A program made the position numbers and the translations under genes. 34,744 bases of DNA, taken from positions 1-34,744 of the IMG/VR virus record IMGVR_UViG_3300020233_000026; one strand, 5' to 3'. Shown piece after piece: positions 3,804-32,879 of this stretch. The number at the start of each line of letters is the position of its first letter. The first letter of the stretch is position 1. Below the pieces are notes generated by a model. That model was not told the DNA's origin. It saw nothing but the letters and a program-made list of their open reading frames with translations, and searched no databases. Origin of the DNA: a virus.

Positions 3804-4043
3804 TTACTCACTGAGTGAATAAGACAGAACTTTTGATGGAGAAGAGGATAAATACTCCACGATACTATCGTAGAAAGTTCCCAGATCATATTCCGAAGAA
3901 GCCTGAATATAATGGGATCTACCATCTACCAAAGTAAACATAATACCAATATAGTCTTTCTCTATTTTACAATATCGTAGCTTTATATCTACAATATTAA
4001 TGCAATTTATGAGTCTATTATCATCTAGTTCAATCCAACACAT
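3804..4043 (-). CDS. Tandem-family small protein B (about 80 aa)
   Basis: 79 residues, one of four adjacent genes with the same pattern: an N-terminal (M)xWIELDDNRLIN-type strand, an Ile/Leu-rich middle, a central Y-x-(I/L)-x-F strand, an acidic/Ser turn before an EY, and a C-terminal helix with a YL. ATG 4043 is chosen for GGAAG six bases upstream; an earlier start at 4073 would overlap the upstream gene for no gain. The fold looks mixed alpha/beta with no catalytic signature. Function is unknown; the tandem duplication suggests a dose-dependent or rapidly diverging host-interaction role (inference). Confidence 0.75.
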   Translation of the reverse strand: MCWIELDDNRLINCINIVDIKLRYCKIEKDYIGIMFTLVDGRSHYIQASSEYDLGTFYDSIVEYLSSSPSKVLSYSLSE

Positions 4044-4045
4044 AA

Positions 4046-4297
4046 TTAGCTTCCATATATATTGTCTTTGCACTTAACTTTAAAGTAGCGCGGATTATCA
4101 GTGATTAAGTTATAACACACTCTCTCAAATAAATTGTTTATATAGTACTCATCGTTTGAAGAAATAGTATGGGACTCTCTACCCTTTAGGTTAAAAACCA
4201 GTTGATACTTTGACCCTTCTTTCCCATACTCATCTACACTAATATCTACTAAATTCAATACATTAACCCACGAAGTGTCTTCTATTTTAATCCACAT
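4046..4297 (-). CDS. Tandem-family small protein A (about 83 aa)
   Basis: 83 residues starting MWIKIEDTSWVNVLNLVDI, the same layout as its neighbours, with a central KYQLVFNLKG strand and a C-terminal helix. ATG 4297 is supported by AAGGAG seven bases upstream; the longer open frame to 4453 is not needed. It overlaps the end of the upstream paralogue by 11 bases and ends 2 bases before the next one starts, as in a tightly coupled operon. No enzymatic motif or membrane segment is seen. Confidence 0.78.
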   Translation of the reverse strand: MWIKIEDTSWVNVLNLVDISVDEYGKEGSKYQLVFNLKGRESHTISSNDEYYINNLFERVCYNLITDNPRYFKVKCKDNIYGS

Positions 4298-4535
4298 TTT
4301 TCTTCTCCTTCTTGAGGATAAGTAATTTTTTATTCTCCCACGCAATATAATCAGATATTTCTTTAAAAACTGAATCGATATACTTGCTGTCTGATGACTC
4401 AATCCAATGATCATATTCCTCAAGCATACTAAAAACAATCCTGTAATTTTCATTATAAATATCAGGTTTATGCAGACAAATATTTATTAGGGTGTCCATA
4501 GGAATTAATTCATTATCAGGTAACTCAATATACAT
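4287..4535 (-). CDS. Tandem-family small protein C (about 82 aa)
   Basis: 82 residues beginning MYIELPDNELIPMDTLINI, with the family's Y-R-I-V-F central strand and a helix ending in SDYI. ATG 4535 overlaps the upstream stop (TGATG) and follows an AAGGGGG run. The C-terminus is very Lys-rich (LILKKEKKN), unlike its paralogues, and carries the ribosome-binding site for the next gene. Function is unknown. Confidence 0.76.
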   Translation of the reverse strand: MYIELPDNELIPMDTLINICLHKPDIYNENYRIVFSMLEEYDHWIESSDSKYIDSVFKEISDYIAWENKKLLILKKEKKNVD

Positions 4536-4789
4536 CAATTATCCCCCTTAGGTTTATATGGAATAACGAGCACCCTAGAGTGATCCCCCAGTAGAAATTC
4601 TAGGAGTACCTTATATAAATGATCTATCTCTTCATAAGATTCAGAACCAACCTCATATTCATCCCCGTCTTCTCCCCAAGATATGACAATCCTATATTTA
4701 TTCGTGTATTCGTTTGGGGCACGTCGCCATATTTTGTTAATGGCACTTTGGTTGAGTAAGCGCTTGTTACCTATTTTAATCCAATTCAT
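4535..4789 (-). CDS. Tandem-family small protein D (about 84 aa)
   Basis: 84 residues beginning MNWIKIGNKRLLNQSAINKI, with central YRIVISWGED, a conserved acidic/Ser turn, and a C-terminal LYKVLLEFLL helix. It has a strong AAGGAGG site five bases before ATG 4789 and shares ATGA with the end of the RNA ligase gene, so the two are probably co-translated. It is the first and least truncated-looking of the four paralogues. No known domain is recognised. Confidence 0.78.
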   Translation of the reverse strand: MNWIKIGNKRLLNQSAINKIWRRAPNEYTNKYRIVISWGEDGDEYEVGSESYEEIDHLYKVLLEFLLGDHSRVLVIPYKPKGDN

Positions 4790-5412
4790 TTCCCCTCCTT
4801 ATACCAATCAAACATATCTCTTCTGAGCTTCGCCATTCTCTTTCCGTCAGGGTGATAGAAGACAAGTCCTTCTGCTTTAGAATCATATTCACCAAACCTC
4901 TGTGCAAACAACGATGGTAACTCTTTAAACCACATACTTACTGACTCAAACGTTTTGGGATATGTATTATATAGATAGCTTCTCCAATAACAAGACTTCT
5001 TAAGATAGGAGAAGGGAACAAAGTAATTTTTTGAAACCCCATGGATGTTGCTATTGAACTTAGGACCTATGAGCTCACCATATACTCTTCCACTATAGTT
5101 GGGTTCGATCCATCCCTTTTCAATAGCAGTAATAACTCCTTCAATCATACGAGTCTTGGAAAAGCCCCAGTCAGTCGTGATAACAGGGGAGCTAACAACT
5201 CGTGTTTTTCTATTATCGATATGAATCAGAGTTCCGGAATCAAAAATACAGCAAAGGTTCGTTCCATGAAGCTTATCAATAGCTTTTACGCCAGGAGTAG
5301 TGAATACCCACTCGAATCCTTCAGCAATTTCATCCGTTACAATAGAGATATTGTCTTTCATCACTCGAACAAAAGGAGATTTAATTTTTGGGAAGTCAAT
5401 TATTTCGTGCAT
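4786..5412 (-). CDS. RNA ligase family protein (Rnl2/DRB0094-like nucleotidyltransferase)
   Basis: 208 residues with the full set of covalent nucleotidyltransferase motifs. Motif I is DKLHGTN (46-52) with adenylated Lys47; VYGELIGPKF (110-119) fills the motif III/IIIa place; motif IV is EGLVFY (181-186); motif V is MAKLRRDMF (193-201). This class joins or repairs broken RNA ends using ATP or NAD. In phages it commonly counters host tRNA- or RNA-cleaving defences (established for T4 Rnl1; inference here). ATG 5412 has AAGGA seven bases upstream and overlaps the HTH gene by 13 bases. No end-healing kinase/phosphatase partner is recognisable nearby. Confidence 0.82.
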   Translation of the reverse strand: MHEIIDFPKIKSPFVRVMKDNISIVTDEIAEGFEWVFTTPGVKAIDKLHGTNLCCIFDSGTLIHIDNRKTRVVSSPVITTDWGFSKTRMIEGVITAIEKGWIEPNYSGRVYGELIGPKFNSNIHGVSKNYFVPFSYLKKSCYWRSYLYNTYPKTFESVSMWFKELPSLFAQRFGEYDSKAEGLVFYHPDGKRMAKLRRDMFDWYKEGK

Positions 5413-5888
5413 GATTCATCCTTAATTATCTCATCTTCGTCAGGAATATCAGGAAAGGTAGGAAGCTCCATCCAATATCTAATATCCCAAGATTCCCCGT
5501 AACGCAGCGATGGGAGACCCTCTCCTACCCAATCCTTACCCTCCCTATAGGAAACGACTGGATTATACCCATCTGGGGGAAACGGAGGAAAAGAAGGAAC
5601 GAAAAGTGACTCTTTTCTCACCAGTACTAAAACTAAAACTAACGTACCTTCAGGAGGTATTTCGTCTTTTACTCTTATCCAGTTCTTTTTAATAGCCCTT
5701 CCGCACTTACAAATGCTTAATAACAGAGCTTCTAAATCTGTTTTCCTATAAAGACGATAGTTGTTCTGAGGATGGCGATAAGAGACTAGCTTCCCAGACT
5801 TCTCCCAGTTTTTTAATGTAGTGGGATGGACTCCAATAAACTGAGCAGCCTTCTTAATAGTTAAGTAGTCAGATATCTTATTCATCAT
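5400..5888 (-). CDS. MerR/excisionase-type HTH fused to a DUF551-like domain
   Basis: About 162 residues. Residues 5-60 form a MerR-like helix-turn-helix (LTIKKAAQFIGVHPTTLKNW, then a YRLYRKTDLEALL wing). A CxC pair follows, then a DUF551-like half that opens WIRVKDEIPPEGT and closes YWMELPTFPDIP. The start of that domain holds an expanded LVLVLVLV run encoded by a six-base tandem repeat. The HTH may bind phage DNA; DUF551 has no known function. ATG 5888 or 5885 starts inside the upstream gene's end, with no strong ribosome-binding site, so coupling is likely. Confidence 0.72.
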   Translation of the reverse strand: MMNKISDYLTIKKAAQFIGVHPTTLKNWEKSGKLVSYRHPQNNYRLYRKTDLEALLLSICKCGRAIKKNWIRVKDEIPPEGTLVLVLVLVRKESLFVPSFPPFPPDGYNPVVSYREGKDWVGEGLPSLRYGESWDIRYWMELPTFPDIPDEDEIIKDESCTK

Positions 5889-6138
5889 CAATAACCCGAA
5901 GTTCTGGAGGATTCGGAAGATACATCCAGTGAGTTACCTGAATAGTACCTCGTCGACCCCACATCTCCACAGAGTTAAATAAAACATCGTCTTCTCCTAT
6001 CCATCTGTAATTCATTCGTGCAGCTATGGTAGTAATCTGCATTTCTACCCCTCTGGAACCCCTTTTTCGGAACTCTTTGATGATGAGAACAAACTCATCA
6101 TCGGGAGGCTTTCTATCATCTAAATGAATCCACTCCAT
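5878..6138 (-). CDS. DUF551-like small protein
   Basis: 86 residues that open MEWIHLDDRKPPDDEFVLII and close THWMYLPNPPE, the beginning and end signatures of DUF551 proteins common in phage genomes. The middle is a variable, basic stretch. Its ATG shares bases with the upstream TAA (TAATG) and an AAGGAG lies 12 bases before it. It is one of at least four DUF551-like genes here (also 5400-5888, 32655-32879, 32876-33175). Function is unknown. Confidence 0.7.
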   Translation of the reverse strand: MEWIHLDDRKPPDDEFVLIIKEFRKRGSRGVEMQITTIAARMNYRWIGEDDVLFNSVEMWGRRGTIQVTHWMYLPNPPELRVIDDE

Positions 6139-14060: not shown

Positions 14061-14306
14061 CTACTTTTCCAAAGACGATGGGGTAAGATCAATGTCGAGC
14101 CCCGTTTGTTTCTTTATTACTTCTTCGACAATCTCTTCTAAAATACTGTCATGTGGAATGTTCTTAAAGGTAATGCAGGAAAAGAAAAATAGGGCGATTC
14201 CCACGATAAGTACGACAAATGCGACCTTTAATAACATGATGACTCCAAAGGCAATCTTAAATTGTATAGGGATTACAGCTAATAGTGATCTGATATGTTT
14301 TATCAT
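14061..14306 (-). CDS. Small membrane protein, possible holin
   Basis: 81 residues. A long hydrophobic stretch (about 8-47, with VAFVVLIVGIALFFFSCITF) could form one long or two short TM helices. An amphipathic tail follows, ending KKQTGLDIDLTPSSLEK, a tail type seen in small phage membrane proteins. It is the last gene of the late leftward unit, next to the fibre genes, where lysis genes commonly sit. There is no ribosome-binding site; the start overlaps the stop of a 34-codon frame (ATGA). Confidence 0.6.
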   Translation of the reverse strand: MIKHIRSLLAVIPIQFKIAFGVIMLLKVAFVVLIVGIALFFFSCITFKNIPHDSILEEIVEEVIKKQTGLDIDLTPSSLEK

Positions 14307-17719: not shown

Positions 17720-18982
17720 CTAGGCTTGAAGACCTATTTTAAGTGTTTGGAGTCCAATCACACCTGATAAGTCAGGTCCTTGTATGGTACGTATAATTGG
17801 CATTACCAGATCACCATTATCAAAAACAAACGGGGAATTAACAGTAGGTGCTGCCCCATTGATCGTATATGTAACCACTCCACCAGAACTAACAAGAATT
17901 TTAAGGGTTAATGCACTCGCATCAGCCCAAGCATCCATAGTATTAGTAAAGACAGATCCTGTTCCATTCAGCTCTTGGTTGAGAGCGACATTCGTTGGGG
18001 TGACACTCGTTATGGCACCAATAGTCGCATAGTCTGTATATGTAGCAATGTCCGCTTGATTGGCCTCAATCTTTCTAAATCCAATCTGCATCCCATTACA
18101 CCCACTCACATCTTCAAGATAGATAGTAGCTTCCATAAAGAACGCAGGCGTTGATCCTATTAAGGCGACATGTTTTGAATTTGTAAGAGTTCCAAAATTG
18201 TATTCAGCTCCCTCTGTATTGGTTTGATCGAGACTAATATCCAGACCATTCGCCGTCATACGAGGAGCGATAATTGTCTGACCCCCTACAATAAACTGTT
18301 CCATTGTAACAATTGACTGTAGAGTCATTAAGTTAAGATCAGTATTACCGCCTGTAGGAACCCCTCCCGTTGTTGCTGCTGTCTGCATAATGGGGGACTC
18401 AGTAAGAATTATATCTGTACCTGTAGCTAAGATAAATTCAGTCTGTATATCTTTTGCTAAAATGGTTCCTGCCGAGTCAAGAGTAAGTTGTGGTGAGCCT
18501 GCCGAATCTGTGAAAAACACATTATTTGCTCCTCCAGTATTCCCCATCTTTATCGTAATGTCAGTTGCGGCTGCAGCACTTATCGCCATTGCGGCGGCTG
18601 ATGTGTATGTAGGAGATGTAATAGATGTGGCAAGTGTGATAGCAGGATCTAAGTTAGAGGTAATAGTACTTCCTGCTCCAACAGTAGTAATATTCGTTCC
18701 TCCAGCAAGTGTAATATTACTTCCTACAGGGGATATATTTCCTCCAGAGTCACCGGACAGAGTAGCAAGATCCGTAGTTCCAGCAGATGAAATAGACCAA
18801 ACAGCCGCACCTGCATTAACACTCGTTAATATCCAAGAAGTATTTGATGACTTGTTTACCCAAATAAATCCAAGCGGATAATTCTTATCGTTAGGAGTAG
18901 GTGCTCTTGAACTTATTACAGGTTGAGGAAATACATTCTGTAGGGGATTCTGAAGGCCTGCTGCTGAATTAATCTTTGCCAT
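17720..18982 (-). CDS. Tail/head fibre with anchor module and beta-sandwich C-domain (420 aa)
   Basis: Residues 1-65 are the anchor module (MAKINSAAGLQNPLQNVFPQ, then NDKNYPLGFIWVNKSSNTSW). A Gly/Ser/Thr-rich beta shaft follows (SGDSGGNISPVGSNITLAGG). From about residue 195 there is a larger domain with regular strands that could be a lectin/laminin-G-like sandwich. AGAGGAAG precedes ATG 18982, which overlaps the end of the previous gene by 14 bases. The anchor is nearly the same as in the 19181 gene, so both probably attach to one site. Confidence 0.75.
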   Translation of the reverse strand: MAKINSAAGLQNPLQNVFPQPVISSRAPTPNDKNYPLGFIWVNKSSNTSWILTSVNAGAAVWSISSAGTTDLATLSGDSGGNISPVGSNITLAGGTNITTVGAGSTITSNLDPAITLATSITSPTYTSAAAMAISAAAATDITIKMGNTGGANNVFFTDSAGSPQLTLDSAGTILAKDIQTEFILATGTDIILTESPIMQTAATTGGVPTGGNTDLNLMTLQSIVTMEQFIVGGQTIIAPRMTANGLDISLDQTNTEGAEYNFGTLTNSKHVALIGSTPAFFMEATIYLEDVSGCNGMQIGFRKIEANQADIATYTDYATIGAITSVTPTNVALNQELNGTGSVFTNTMDAWADASALTLKILVSSGGVVTYTINGAAPTVNSPFVFDNGDLVMPIIRTIQGPDLSGVIGLQTLKIGLQA

Positions 18983-19180: not shown

Positions 19181-20431
19181 TTAGTTAATTAACATCCATC
19201 CAATCGTTGAAACATCTGTTGCTACAACTGAGGTCGCATCAGCTTCGGTTACAGAATTAATCACAAACGATACTCCAGCTGCAATAGTTCCCGCAGTAAT
19301 CATACCGATTGCCGCAGCTCCTGTTGCTCCAATATCCTGTCTCCATGTAACGATAAGAGATCCCGCAGTTACTGAAGTGGTAGAAACAGTAGCTGTTCCT
19401 GCCACAAGAACCACCGTACCGAAACTGTTTGCTCCGGCTGTTGTTGTCGTTGCTACATTTGCACTTAGTAATTTGTTTCCTGTAGAGACGAAGTTAAGAT
19501 TACTATCTATATTTGTGTGGGCACTCCCGGCCTTTAGTGTAATTCCACCAGCTGGATCGAAGGCTATAAGATTAATTGCCAGTGGATTAGAAAAGAAACT
19601 TGTAAGAGCTATTGAATCTACACTATCAATTCCTATGGGACCGGCATTACCAGAACCTATTGCTACGCTATGTGTAGTAGTTCCCGTAGCGATATTCACC
19701 TGACCAGGGCTCGTTCCTGTCATTAGGTTAAATGTTTGAGTACCAGCTGTAGAAGTTCCTGTTAAAATATTTACTATAGAATCTGCTGCTGGATTGCCTG
19801 AGTTAATATTAGTAGTGTTTACCCCAGTATTTATTCCGTTGTTAATACTTGTTACATTACTACCAACTCCTGGACCAATCTGTATCGTACTATTTCCTGT
19901 TGCATTCCCAAGCGTATGATTTAATCCACTTGCATTCATATCTCCAAGAGAGTTTACCGTCCAAACTGCTGTTGTCGCTGAATCTGTGATAGATATAGCT
20001 TCTACACCTGCAATATCGCCCAACTGAATAGCGATAGATCCTGGAGCTGAGCCAATAATAAGTGGGGTGGTGACAGATGTGGCAAGTGTAATTGCACCAT
20101 CCATAGCTACTGAAATGGTAGATCCAGCGCCACTTGTGGTGATATTAGTGGTTCCGGCAATTAGGATATTAGATCCTGAGGGAGTCGCAGTACCTGAATC
20201 ACCTGTGAGGCTGTTTAAGGTACTACTAGATCCGCCAAGATCTTCCCAGTCAGCAACACCAGCTAATACACGAGAGAGCCCGAAAAACGCTCCTGCTGCC
20301 TTGTTTACCCATATTTGTCCAATAGGATAATTCTTATCGTTACCAGTCGGGGATCGTGAACTTGTTATTGGTTGTGGAAATACAGGTTGGAGGGGAGTTT
20401 CGAGCCCTGCTGCTGAGTTAATTTTAGCCAT
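19181..20431 (-). CDS. Tail/head fibre with anchor module and conserved C-terminal domain (416 aa)
   Basis: It starts with the same anchor module as 17720-18982 (MAKINSAAGLETPLQPVFPQ, then IGQIWVNKAAGAFF). A beta-helix-like shaft has short repeats (NATGNSTIQIGPG; GINTGVNTTNINSG; TGTTTHSVAIGSGNAG). The end, ATVSTTSVTAGSLIVTWRQD through STIGWMLIN, is a C-domain widespread in phage and phage-like fibres. ATG 20431 is preferred over 20443 because GAGG lies just before it. Confidence 0.78.
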   Translation of the reverse strand: MAKINSAAGLETPLQPVFPQPITSSRSPTGNDKNYPIGQIWVNKAAGAFFGLSRVLAGVADWEDLGGSSSTLNSLTGDSGTATPSGSNILIAGTTNITTSGAGSTISVAMDGAITLATSVTTPLIIGSAPGSIAIQLGDIAGVEAISITDSATTAVWTVNSLGDMNASGLNHTLGNATGNSTIQIGPGVGSNVTSINNGINTGVNTTNINSGNPAADSIVNILTGTSTAGTQTFNLMTGTSPGQVNIATGTTTHSVAIGSGNAGPIGIDSVDSIALTSFFSNPLAINLIAFDPAGGITLKAGSAHTNIDSNLNFVSTGNKLLSANVATTTTAGANSFGTVVLVAGTATVSTTSVTAGSLIVTWRQDIGATGAAAIGMITAGTIAAGVSFVINSVTEADATSVVATDVSTIGWMLIN

Positions 20432-20443
20432 CTTACGCCTCAT

Positions 20444-20527
20444 GAAATATGTGATAATCTTTTCTTTTGTTATATATTAGATATTTTAAAGATGGAAGCT
20501 TAAACCTAAAACGTATATCATTGTGAT
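20444..20527. promoter_or_regulatory. Divergent intergenic region between fibre gene and RHH island
   Basis: Very AT-rich (TTGTTATATATTAGATATTT near the centre) and lying between a leftward fibre gene and a rightward RHH gene, so it probably holds promoters for one or both. I could not fix convincing -35/-10 pairs. The RHH protein may bind here. Confidence 0.35.
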
Positions 20528-20689
20528 ATGCGAAAAAAACCAAAACGTCTGGTAATTAATTTACCTGAGATAGTTTATGATGATCTTAAATCTCATTCTG
20601 AGGAGAGACATATGTCAATGAGTGCTTATATTTTAGCTGCTCTTGTCTTTAGGTTAGAGGCAGAGCCGGAAAGGATTAATGATGAATGA
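20528..20689 (+). CDS. Ribbon-helix-helix (Arc/CopG-like) protein, 53 aa
   Basis: Reads [20 protein letters not shown], with a basic N-terminus, an RLVINLP strand, a first helix ([12 protein letters not shown]), a turn with MSMSAY and a second helix ([12 protein letters not shown]). This is the Arc/CopG dimeric DNA-binding fold, at the usual length. No clear ribosome-binding site precedes ATG 20528. It overlaps the next gene by eight bases and starts a rightward island within leftward late genes, which it may autoregulate. Confidence 0.72.
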
Positions 20690-21083
20690 CTCTAAAGAAT
20701 ATCCTAAATTTGAAGACTTAAAAGGGAAAACTCTGATCTTAATTGAAGTGAATAAAGATGAGGATGAAATTACCTATAAAACTGATGATGATGAGCAATA
20801 TACTTCGTACCATGATCAAGACTGTTGTGAAATAGTGTGTATTGAGGATATTTGTGGTGATTTAGATAACCTACTCGACTCTCCTATTTTAATCGCTGAA
20901 GAACGGGTTAATCATGATGCAAACGAGAAGAAGGTTAAGGATTCATTACATTGGTCCAATTACAATTCATTTACTTGGACTTTTTATGAACTTGCTACCA
21001 TTAAAGGTTCAGTGACGATCCGTTGGTATGGGTCATCCAATGGATATTATTCAGAAAGTGTAGATTTTAAAAAGGAGAAGTAA
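20682..21083 (+). CDS. DUF7448-like protein (133 aa)
   Basis: An acidic protein with a Cys pair ([20 protein letters not shown]), a central [11 protein letters not shown], and the end [20 protein letters not shown] then YYSESVDF. I recognise this as the pattern of DUF7448, a phage and bacterial family without known function. ATG 20682 is six bases after AAAGGA; ATG 20679 is an alternative. It is co-translated with the RHH gene before it and followed by a micropeptide gene. Confidence 0.7.
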
Positions 21084-21084
21084 T

Positions 21085-21147
21085 ATGGGTCTAGCTTGGT
21101 TTGTTTTTGGTGTTGGACTCTTCATTGTTTGTATCTTCACCGATTAG
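21085..21147 (+). CDS. Membrane micropeptide (20 aa)
   Basis: The frame encodes MGLAWFVFGVGLFIVCIFTD, almost all one TM helix with an acidic end. AAAGGAG lies eight bases before ATG 21085, one base after the previous gene's stop, so initiation is likely. It overlaps the end of the converging ejection-protein gene by 57 bases. Such tiny membrane peptides can be holin-like, toxic or regulators of membrane proteins; nothing here decides. Confidence 0.5.
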   Translation: MGLAWFVFGVGLFIVCIFTD

Positions 21148-22623
21148 AAAATCCCAATTCTCTTGTGGGTACTTTTTAGAAAGAATATTATGGGCTCCTC
21201 TTTCTAACTGTAATGCACTTGCCCGTTTATTATTTTTTACAGCCATACCAATTTTACGCCAGATATTTTGCATTCTTGGATTAGTGGCTAGTTCTTTAGA
21301 GAGATGACTCAGAGCTACTTCACTTGCTACACCCTTAAGGAGAGCAGGATTTAGAGTGCCGATTGCTGCACCAGCAGCAACTATTCGTCCTGCAATCTTA
21401 AATCTATCTGCAATATGAGGCTTTAACACTTTTTCCGCAGTTTTATATCTTCTCCATAACTGATTTGTAAGATCAAACTCTTTAGCGAGTTGGGGATCTA
21501 CAGACTCTAATACTTCCATTACAGGTTTTTTTAGTCCTGCTAAGACCTTTTTTCCTCCTTTTATCTTATTCCAATCTACAGCTGCATTTATATCTCCCAC
21601 AAACCGAGTTAGCTCTTCAGGAGAAGATCCAGTATTTCTAATATTTGACATAGCATCTTCGATAAAACTGGTAGCTGCTTTCTTTTCAGGTGAAGCTTTA
21701 ATGGTGGTACGTAGTTTTTTATTTATCTTGCCAAAATCATCTAAAAGTTTTTCATCTTGTTCTAAACTTAACATGGGAAATTTTCCAGCTTTCTCATGAA
21801 TAGAGTCATATACATCACCAAGTTTACGCCCAATACTTTTAAAACTTTCTTTAAGTTTAGGTCCCTTACCAAACAGTTTGGATAAAACTGCTAGAGAAGA
21901 TTCCTTTTTCAATAACGGAGTTAGCTCTTTCTCGGTGAGTTTAGCGGCGCGTCCAAAGTTAACGAGTTCTTTAAGTTTCTTACCCGGAACTAACGCCTTT
22001 TTAAATCCTGGAGTTGCTAGAGAGGTTCCGATATCTATCCCAGTAGCTAATCCCTCAGGAGCTCCTAATTCTCTCGCAGTCTGCCCAGCTGCTGCTCCTC
22101 CCATCATCGCCAAAATTGCCAAGGGATTTGCTGCCAAGCTTGCTCCCGCGCCTCCAGCTTCAGCAATACTCTGGGCATATCTTTGTGGAGCTGTTTGGGG
22201 TTCTGTCTCTATTCCCAGCATTTGTGCTAACCGCTCTATATCCTGTCCTCCAGGAAGTCGGCCCACAGGAGGCGCGATTGGATCTTCCGTTAGAGTCATT
22301 ACCTCTGCAAGAGTAGGTTTATACCCTGGCTGCTGTAGTCTTTCTAGTATTTCAAACTCCTCTCCAAATTTAGCCTTTTCTTCTGGAGGCTGCTCTTCTG
22401 GTTGGATGCCTAGGAGTTGCAAAATATCCCCATATGCACCTAGACCACCCTTTGCAGCCCCGATAGCGGCGTGTTTTGCGACTTGTCTAGATTCACTTAG
22501 AGTTTTCTTTTGAAGAGCTTTAAAACGTGAGATTGGAGCTTCCTCATATTCAACTTGCTCAAATATATCTCCATAAGGGGAATACTCAACTTGATCGAAA
22601 ATATCTTTAGAGTTTGTAGCCAT
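21091..22623 (-). CDS. Candidate ejection (internal virion) protein, about 510 aa
   Basis: Starts MATNSKDIFDQVEY with a second DIFEQVEY copy within 20 residues. It has Gly/Ala-rich hydrophobic helices (IGAAKGGLGAYG; ANPLAILAMMGGAAAGQTAR; GRIVAAGAAIGTLNPALLKG) and long charged helices. This is the layout of internal proteins that podoviruses inject to build a channel for DNA. ATG 22623 has GAGG nearby. It follows two other candidate ejection genes, the place of the P22 gp7/gp20/gp16 set. No lytic transglycosylase motif is visible. Confidence 0.62.
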   Translation of the reverse strand: MATNSKDIFDQVEYSPYGDIFEQVEYEEAPISRFKALQKKTLSESRQVAKHAAIGAAKGGLGAYGDILQLLGIQPEEQPPEEKAKFGEEFEILERLQQPGYKPTLAEVMTLTEDPIAPPVGRLPGGQDIERLAQMLGIETEPQTAPQRYAQSIAEAGGAGASLAANPLAILAMMGGAAAGQTARELGAPEGLATGIDIGTSLATPGFKKALVPGKKLKELVNFGRAAKLTEKELTPLLKKESSLAVLSKLFGKGPKLKESFKSIGRKLGDVYDSIHEKAGKFPMLSLEQDEKLLDDFGKINKKLRTTIKASPEKKAATSFIEDAMSNIRNTGSSPEELTRFVGDINAAVDWNKIKGGKKVLAGLKKPVMEVLESVDPQLAKEFDLTNQLWRRYKTAEKVLKPHIADRFKIAGRIVAAGAAIGTLNPALLKGVASEVALSHLSKELATNPRMQNIWRKIGMAVKNNKRASALQLERGAHNILSKKYPQENWDFLIGEDTNNEESNTKNKPS

Positions 22624-23713
22624 GCTGCCTCGCGAGTTTCTTAGCCTTTTCTTTATCACCTTTAGCAAGATTGATAAACTGTTGAGCTAACTCTATATTG
22701 AGTTTTTCCCCCTGTTTAGCTTTAGCAATCTTTATCTGCTTTTCCTTTTTGGGAGAAAGCAATTTCCTAATGCTTTCAGCATAGGTTTTCTCGAACTCTC
22801 TTCCTTTCTTCTCTACTTTATCTCTCACAATCTTTTGGAAGTTTCTAGGAACCTCTCTTCCTTTTTTGGTATACTTCTCTTCGATTCTTGCAGCCTCTTG
22901 AGCTCCATACTCTTCTATATCAGCAATACCTTTTATCCCCTCTAAAATGAGCTTGTTTGCCTCGTCCTTATAAAGGGGACTAATAAGAGCTTTAGTAATA
23001 CTACGCTCAAGAAATTGGTTGGGTCTTCCTGTGATCCCGGCAAGAGAGCTTAGAAGGTATTGCTTGGAAGCTGCATTAACTAATTGTGCAGACCCTGTCT
23101 TTAAGAATTCCTGTCCAAACAATTCAGAAGCCGCATTACGCACAGAATTAAAATCACCAGCATTCATAGCTCCTTCCATTTGAGCAATAGACACCTTTTT
23201 CTTTGGCATATCTGTTAGAATATCTGATTGGCGTTCTAAGTATTTTTTATTTCTTTCAAACGATCGCTTATCAAACTGTTCTTGATGAGCTACTCGTTCT
23301 TTAGGAGTCCGACCCAATTGCTCTTCAAACACTAACTCCTCTTCTCCATCCGGAGAAACTTGGACTTCTTCCTCAGCAGCTAATGGTTGATCCCCGCCTT
23401 CTTCGCCTGACGGTTGTTCTATTCCAAGTCCCCTTTTTTCCAATCCCTTAGCTCTTTGCATGCGATCTACTATCTCTTTGGATAATTGAGTTTTTCCCCC
23501 TTCAGTAAACTGCATCCATAACGAGGCTTCATTTGGAGTAAATCCTCTAGCTATCAGATCTTCATAGTTTCCCATTGCAGCTTTCTTTTTTCGGGACTCG
23601 GTCATATCTTTAATCTTCTCTTTCATGAGCATTTCTAGACCTGAAGATACGCCTTTACCCGCTGCTTGACCAATAGAAGCCCAGGGATCTGATTGAGGAA
23701 TTACTTGTACCAT
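22607..23713 (-). CDS. Candidate internal virion/ejection protein (368 aa)
   Basis: A highly charged, Lys/Glu-rich, mostly helical protein. The N-terminal VIPQSDPWASIGQAAGKGV is an amphipathic start seen in injected proteins. A YEDLIARGFTPNEASLWMQF helix and an acidic Gly/Glu linker follow, then a long coiled-coil-like C-terminal half ending QHGYKL. GGAG precedes ATG 23713. Position between the glutamine-rich protein and the 510-residue protein supports an ejection role; no enzymatic motif is seen. Confidence 0.6.
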   Translation of the reverse strand: MVQVIPQSDPWASIGQAAGKGVSSGLEMLMKEKIKDMTESRKKKAAMGNYEDLIARGFTPNEASLWMQFTEGGKTQLSKEIVDRMQRAKGLEKRGLGIEQPSGEEGGDQPLAAEEEVQVSPDGEEELVFEEQLGRTPKERVAHQEQFDKRSFERNKKYLERQSDILTDMPKKKVSIAQMEGAMNAGDFNSVRNAASELFGQEFLKTGSAQLVNAASKQYLLSSLAGITGRPNQFLERSITKALISPLYKDEANKLILEGIKGIADIEEYGAQEAARIEEKYTKKGREVPRNFQKIVRDKVEKKGREFEKTYAESIRKLLSPKKEKQIKIAKAKQGEKLNIELAQQFINLAKGDKEKAKKLARQHGYKL

Positions 23714-32654: not shown

Positions 32655-32879
32655 TCATTCATACCATTTATCTGGTGTAGAAGGAAGATTCGACCAATAG
32701 GTAATATAAATACGATTTGGTAATTGAAAATCGCAGATATACCATCCAGTCATCATACTCCAGCTAGCAGTAAATATTTCTGGCCCATCAGTTCCCGATG
32801 CCCATAATACAAGTATTTTCTCATCTTCTTTAGGAATTTTATCTTTAACCGAATACCAATTAATGAAATTATCTCTCAA
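32655..32879 (-). CDS. DUF551-like protein (74 aa), TTG start
   Basis: It opens NWYSVKDKIPKEDEKILVLW and closes TYWSNLPSTPDKW, the two conserved ends of DUF551. The start is TTG 32879, which overlaps the preceding stop (TTGA) and follows an AGGGAG; no in-frame ATG is near. It is the shortest of the four DUF551-like genes and lies in the late region, far from the pair at 5400-6138. Confidence 0.68.
   Translation of the reverse strand: MRDNFINWYSVKDKIPKEDEKILVLWASGTDGPEIFTASWSMMTGWYICDFQLPNRIYITYWSNLPSTPDKWYE

Follow-up and report, generated by a model that had tools for sequence, protein, structure and literature searches.

The closest described systems and the layout of the island

Small genes that lie between virion genes and vary among relatives are described as phage morons or accessory loci, such as lambda bor and lom and the genes of Pseudomonas transposable phages. 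Moron genes are independently transcribed, and in our comparison the cassette described here would be alike in this respect. In acr/aca operons, a conserved DNA-binding autoregulator lies beside fast-changing small early genes and promoter and operator overlap, an arrangement that the cassette appears to share. Anti-defence genes of archaeal viruses with Aca8-type regulators are early small genes with one regulator and inverted repeats near the promoter (PMC11065993). The Arc and Mnt proteins of phage P22 and CopG, which act in immunity and copy-number control, offer a likeness to the 53-aa stand-alone RHH core found here. Very short proteins with a single hydrophobic helix include the T4 exclusion proteins Imm and Sp and IbsC and TisB, which are tiny type I toxins.

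Unlike phage morons, the cassette is headed in nearly all kin phages by a constant RHH repressor gene, always lies on the opposite strand and usually ends in an 18-70-aa membrane peptide, and no terminator was found for it. It combines a conserved DNA-binding regulator with variable small genes as acr/aca operons do, but its regulator is an RHH protein of the Arc/CopG type encoded by the first gene, and its cargo consists of membrane peptides and a DUF7448 protein. Searches with Pfam, phrog and PADLOC turned up neither a relative of any known defence or anti-defence protein nor a known Acr for the cassette. In contrast with Arc/Mnt and CopG, the RHH protein is tied to a membrane-peptide cassette among tail genes, and unlike IbsC/TisB and T4 Imm/Sp, to which they show no sequence relation, the micropeptides are headed by an RHH gene as a putative control. 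No paper on such cassettes was found in the literature.

The window, i.e. the whole stretch of 34,744 nt that we analysed, has a 91-bp terminal repeat and 40% G+C and is a complete and probably circular phage genome record. Its gene set is podovirus-like (terminase, portal, P22-like head protein and tail-fibre genes) and includes the recombination genes RecE/Erf/SSB/RusA. Its late genes are oriented leftward, from 34744 down to 14061, and the island at 20528-21147 is the only credible rightward block within 14061-34744, as the preliminary description had noticed. As the window yielded no lysogeny genes, a moron role of the prophage type is without support. Elsewhere in the window, several small proteins have similar W-I-rich openings (3804-4789, 5400-6138 and 32655-32879), and DUF551 and phrog_7704 are each matched by three proteins, which suggests a duplicated small-protein family. 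An RNA ligase domain (PF09414, E 1e-5) was also present among the window proteins, most likely in ORF 4786-5412, in a scan that did not assign matches to proteins.

The island is flanked on the left by a tail-fibre-like gene (19181-20443 (-)), which probably starts at 20428 (MAKIN...) and carries a K1-lyase C-terminal domain (Pfam, E 3e-10). This gene and its neighbour at 17720-18982 share a 67-residue N-terminal module that is 61% identical, with unrelated C-termini, and the module is seen again in several fibre genes of kin. On the right lies a convergent late gene for a 525-aa protein (21091-22668 (-)), probably an internal virion protein. All three ORFs of the island were found as first described, with their own divergent gap and tight packing. 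The gap at 20429-20527, between the leftward fibre gene and the rightward RHH gene, is a putative promoter/operator region. The RHH gene (20528-20689 (+)) overlaps the gene for the 134-aa DUF7448 protein (20679-21083 (+)) by 11 nt, and a 1-nt gap precedes the ORF of the 20-aa peptide MGLAWFVFGVGLFIVCIFTD (21085-21147 (+)). The ideal ribosome-binding site claimed for this peptide can be read directly as AAGGAG at 21072-21077 (+), inside the last DUF7448 codons and 7 nt ahead of the ATG. The preliminary description needs correcting on two points: a Shine-Dalgarno sequence is missing ahead of the RHH start in this genome, and the last 57 nt of the peptide ORF lie over the end of the 525-aa gene.

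The RHH protein and its fixed site in kin phages

From its sequence alone, the 53-aa RHH protein is a subthreshold match to Pfam RHH_5/Arc. The iterated profile of the kin family recovers it at E 3e-17, joins the kin RHH proteins at E < 1e-11, and matches ParG (4e-6), ParD (1e-4) and Arc (0.016). The AF2 monomer model (pLDDT 90) contains helices at residues 14-26 and 31-45 and superposes on CopG over 44/44 residues (rmsd 1.1 Å, Z 7.0, TM 0.90 by target) and on Arc (TM 0.92); the RHH strand forms only in the dimer, and DSSP does not call it in the monomer model. Taken together, the kin profiles and the predicted structure establish an Arc/CopG-type RHH fold for the product of 20528-20689, in line with the identity first given to it. 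About 8 low-confidence residues follow the RHH core, and the RHH proteins of the site are in general bare repressor cores of about 45-62 aa with no toxin-binding tail.

Direct searches of viral contigs gave no relatives of either the RHH protein or the 525-aa protein, so kin phages were reached through the terminase instead. Sites in kin were anchored on the conserved tail-fibre N-terminus (alignment A2), which is independent of the cassette and was found in 37 of 50 kin records; conservation in this alignment was too low for a pattern scan. Homologues of the 525-aa protein occur in G004, G005, G007 and G008 (29-34% identical) and, more weakly, in G016, and their C-termini differ, so that the overlapped end is non-conserved. 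In each of these five kin, an opposite-strand RHH gene stands at exactly the same site. Twenty-nine non-redundant sites reach the next late gene without a break, and 28 of them carry the RHH gene in the same place and orientation; the exception, L229, has a 24-aa hydrophobic ORF. The RHH gene is separated from the divergent first fibre gene by 71-352 nt. The cassette sits between a probable internal virion protein gene and the first tail-fibre-like gene in an uncultured podovirus-like clade. Neither the RHH protein nor the fibre anchor matched anything in 50,697 deposited phages, and the late genes of MW202510 and ZP6, deposited phages whose terminases are related, contain no island of this kind.

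The number of small genes behind the RHH gene ranges from zero to several, and their kind changes. The middle genes of kin encode an HTH protein, Cys-rich or Zn-like proteins, or holin-like proteins, or are missing, and the minimal cassette, in G007, is the RHH gene followed by the 21-aa peptide MGVVFIVIIIGFLIDVWMELS. The sister phages G012 and G013 show the difference in pace directly. Their flanking late protein is 98.8% identical and their RHH proteins are identical at 53/53 residues (dN 0, dS 0.13), whereas the adjacent membrane proteins are identical at 64/95 residues (67%) with saturated dS, and G013 alone has one extra membrane gene. A constant regulator with fast-changing cargo is a usual sign of genes in conflict with the host or with rivals, and the cassette may be read in this way. 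As the RHH gene stays at the site in nearly all kin, the whole island cannot be regarded as a sporadic insert. The likeness to a moron that had been proposed therefore holds in part: DUF7448 and the other middle genes are absent from the same site in kin, as expected of a moron, but the RHH gene is not.

Some cassette and late-region genes of kin deserve separate mention. The cargo gene L169:3520-3861 (-) has a weak, below cut-off similarity to sigma70 region 4 (E 0.0016). In two kin, a gene for a serine resolvase/invertase (PF00239, E 3e-34) lies on the other strand from the late genes, at L096:16761-17318 (-) and L094:16718-17275 (-), which forms a second opposite-strand island between portal and head genes and hints at a plasmid-like or invertible state. 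One of 36 scanned proteins from L094, L096 and L172 matches PF03118 (RNA polymerase alpha-subunit C-terminal domain, E 2e-9) in a scan without protein assignment, and could be a phage-encoded transcription modifier. In L212 and L224, a homing-endonuclease-like HNH domain is fused ahead of the cassette RHH domain (147-149 aa). These last fusions would suit a selfish element, namely a homing endonuclease that re-invades the site and has left its DNA-binding part behind as the RHH gene. We consider this highly improbable, as such fusions occur at only 2 of about 33 sites and the other RHH genes have no nuclease and keep their cargo and ribosome-binding sites.

The RHH protein is likely to regulate its own gene. 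A palindrome of 9+9 nt (89%), CGTATATCA-TTG-TGATATGCG, covers the RHH start codon at 20512-20532 and is a candidate RHH operator; no second copy exists in the genome even when 3 mismatches are allowed, and taken alone its strength is within the range of shuffles (p 0.26). The divergent gap of the window holds a weak sigma70-like match at 20451-20478. Across 28 kin gaps, the signals are stronger as a set: palindrome strength is 198 compared with 152±15 in shuffles, and the sigma70 promoter score is 258 compared with 244±3.8. In several of these gaps the palindrome lies inside the promoter spacer, as in G013 (TTGACA-atgTGTACACAtggtg-TACAAT) and L209 (TTGACT...TTGCACAATTGTGCAA). Fold, unique palindrome and enrichment in kin gaps all point to the autoregulation that the preliminary description had suggested. 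As for an own promoter and terminator, the cassette in the window thus has a weak promoter match, with better promoters in the kin set, and no terminator-like site was found in 20300-21300, so that late transcripts bound for the fibre genes would run antisense through the cassette.

The same gap could be read differently, with the RHH protein regulating the divergent tail-fibre genes or an early-late switch and the genes behind it being passengers. The RHH gene is always divergent from the first fibre gene and more constant than the cargo, and a gap of this length could hold a bidirectional operator. However, the gap of the window shows no sigma70-like site pointing leftward, and genes that were only passengers would not be expected to end in a membrane peptide at 19 of 29 sites. 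Regulation of the fibre genes therefore seems improbable to us as the main role.

The hosts of these phages may be hinted at by bacterial genomes. Terminase homologues (E <= 1e-20) were present in 19 of the 232 Chlamydiales genomes searched, sometimes on long contigs, and the fibre anchor in 7 of 232, two of these with the RHH gene. This search, from which loci L246, L249-L257, L283 and L285 come, was centred on a Simkaniaceae MAG, and phage contigs were possibly binned into the MAGs. The anchor was found in 2 of 369 gammaproteobacterial genomes, one of which was the centre chosen for that search. To our knowledge, tailed phages of Chlamydiae are hardly known. In a Methylococcaceae MAG, the terminase homologue L245 (G052:C18:13890-15206) has one in-frame TAG, which may be an error, decay or recoding.

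The exchangeable DUF7448 gene and the terminal membrane micropeptides

The identity of the middle gene product is certain. It matches PF24240 along the full profile (1-104/104) with 87.5 bits against a cut-off of 27 (E 9e-25) and phrog_2650 at E 3e-44, and its BFVD fold matches named DUF7448. It covers the full length of the family and shares 44-60% identity with 61 relatives from phages, and the 62-sequence alignment contains an invariant CC motif and a further invariant motif. The model (pLDDT 87) is soluble and beta-rich, and Foldseek found nothing in the PDB at E <= 0.001. The immunity protein PIM7 (8owu_D), the best match of a second comparison, was considered and rejected, as its values (Z 7.4, rmsd 2.9, 89 residues) are in the range of common arrangements. 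No paper on DUF7448 was found.

The family is spread over 149 loci in IMG/VR and 104 deposited phage records, and its neighbours vary across the 80 loci that were compared. In these 80 loci, the kin RHH profile detected no RHH gene within 400 nt upstream, and by eye the upstream protein in the L008 and L009 loci looks RHH-like; only 5 of 79 other loci have a small membrane gene behind DUF7448. Among the kin reached through the terminase, DUF7448 was detected in 0 of 36, a count that rests on profile sensitivity because the control genomes of the search were also silent, and hmmscan did detect the protein in the window itself. Elsewhere DUF7448 has other neighbourhoods without an RHH partner, and in the window it is the cargo of a late-region cassette. 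The absence from kin makes the gene exchangeable cargo and, judged by these comparisons, a recent arrival at the cassette. The trio that had been put forward as a unit to look for in other phages is therefore not conserved, while the pair of RHH gene and membrane peptide is.

The peptide of the window is predicted to form a single membrane helix (residues 2-18, GRAVY 2.0). As its ORF largely overlies the end of the 525-aa gene and it has no close relative, this one peptide could still be a chance ORF. To evaluate the class, we defined a micropeptide by an ATG, a Shine-Dalgarno core, a length of 18-70 aa, a 17-residue Kyte-Doolittle mean of at least 1.9, and a stop codon between -40 and +70 nt relative to that of the convergent gene. 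Such ORFs are present at 19 of the 29 sites, compared with 0.03 expected from dinucleotide shuffles of the same stretches, and accompany 2 of the 732 further late-gene stops that served as controls in these phages. The rule was fixed after a first look at the sites, so the weight is carried by the shuffles and the control stops and not by the choice of rule. These controls rule out chance antisense ORFs as the source of the 20-aa ORF class, and the recurrence at the same place in kin indicates that the micropeptides are real as a class.

Besides the peptides of the window and of G007, examples are MSFILGVLGIGVGIYFWINS (L238), MMYFLLGAFAIILYGILETY (L239) and MTFIGIVITIFIIRWLLD (L215). Membrane genes just outside the strict rule were seen in L206, L210, L211, L213 and L227, and an RHH gene with no detected membrane peptide in L212, L217 and L222. 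The micropeptides form a class by position, size, hydropathy and Shine-Dalgarno sequence, being too short to show homology, and too few close pairs exist for dN/dS, with dS saturated in the informative pair. In most of the shorter ones the N-terminus is neutral and the C-terminus either neutral or acidic; under the positive-inside rule, an N-in/C-out orientation is suggested. Activity at the membrane is suggested by their hydropathy.

Peptides of 18-21 aa that are as hydrophobic as MTFIGIVITIFIIRWLLD are like type I toxins in size and composition, so the cassette could be an addiction or toxin-antitoxin-like unit in which a toxic micropeptide is held in check by the RHH protein or by the antisense late transcript. 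The antisense position of the cassette relative to the late genes is compatible with this, ParD is matched in Pfam by 9 of 27 kin RHH proteins, and the serine resolvase of kin would suit a plasmid-like state. On the other hand, the RHH protein is a bare repressor core without a toxin-neutralising tail. In L229 the peptide occurs with the RHH gene missing, in L217 and L222 the RHH gene is present and no peptide was detected, and variable genes stand between the RHH gene and the peptide, unlike in a tight toxin-antitoxin pair. As to a type II system, neither a C-terminal toxin-binding extension nor a constant adjacent toxin gene of a known family was found, and PADLOC gave no match for the cassette. 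With partners that change among phages and a DUF7448 protein that occurs elsewhere without an RHH partner, the toxin-antitoxin-like unit of the preliminary description appears weak, and we regard addiction as unlikely.

The micropeptides might instead be pinholin- or antiholin-like timers of lysis. No endolysin, holin or spanin family was among the Pfam matches of the window, nor an endolysin or holin family among those of two kin genomes, which keeps this reading alive, and holin-like cargo with a membrane helix and a coiled coil (MDWTQV...) is present in L171 and L238. However, the cassette is opposite to the late-gene strand and behind a repressor, and several kin have no membrane peptide in it. 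Moreover, another membrane protein, encoded at 14061-14306, closes the late operon at the usual position of lysis genes and has counterparts in kin. A role in lysis timing is thus rather improbable.

Proposed role of the cassette

With somewhat more confidence than doubt, we propose that the island is a fixed-site, RHH-autoregulated accessory cassette that delivers fast-changing membrane micropeptides, probably early in infection, to alter the host envelope. The location and strand of the cassette, the fold of the RHH protein, the turnover of the cargo and the recurrence of membrane peptides beyond chance are observed; that the RHH gene regulates itself, when the cassette is expressed, that antisense transcripts silence it and what it does are inferred. 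The host polymerase would probably transcribe the cassette soon after entry. The RHH repressor from the first gene would bind the palindrome over its own promoter or start, and output would be kept low or transient. The middle genes are exchangeable, with DUF7448 in the window and other kinds or none in kin, and the last gene usually encodes a predicted one-helix membrane micropeptide. The RHH protein and antisense late transcription may then switch the cassette off. The fast-changing peptides would most likely act on the host inner membrane, in superinfection exclusion or anti-defence. An early, self-limiting burst of a changing membrane peptide under a constant repressor would fit an envelope-level effect against competing phages or defences.

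A more far-reaching interpretation, which we offer tentatively and with some doubt, is that the micropeptides are a new class of 18-70-aa single-helix phage membrane effectors. They would be early, Arc/CopG-repressed and encoded at a fixed antisense site of the late operon, would diversify rapidly, would provide envelope-level exclusion or anti-defence, and would be shut off late by antisense transcription.

What is new here is a fixed-site, RHH-headed accessory cassette with membrane micropeptides as its hallmark, for which morons and acr-aca operons are the nearest concepts. One-helix membrane peptides of 18-70 aa at this site were undescribed so far. Gene callers skip peptides of 18-30 residues, and a layer of phage-host membrane interactions may therefore lack annotation. 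Such peptides can here be predicted from sequence by combining their position, a constant repressor and a statistical control, and this one site yields a panel of about 20 different peptides for work on exclusion, anti-defence or toxicity. The constant RHH gene would further provide a handle for finding anti-host genes by association, just as aca genes led to anti-CRISPRs.
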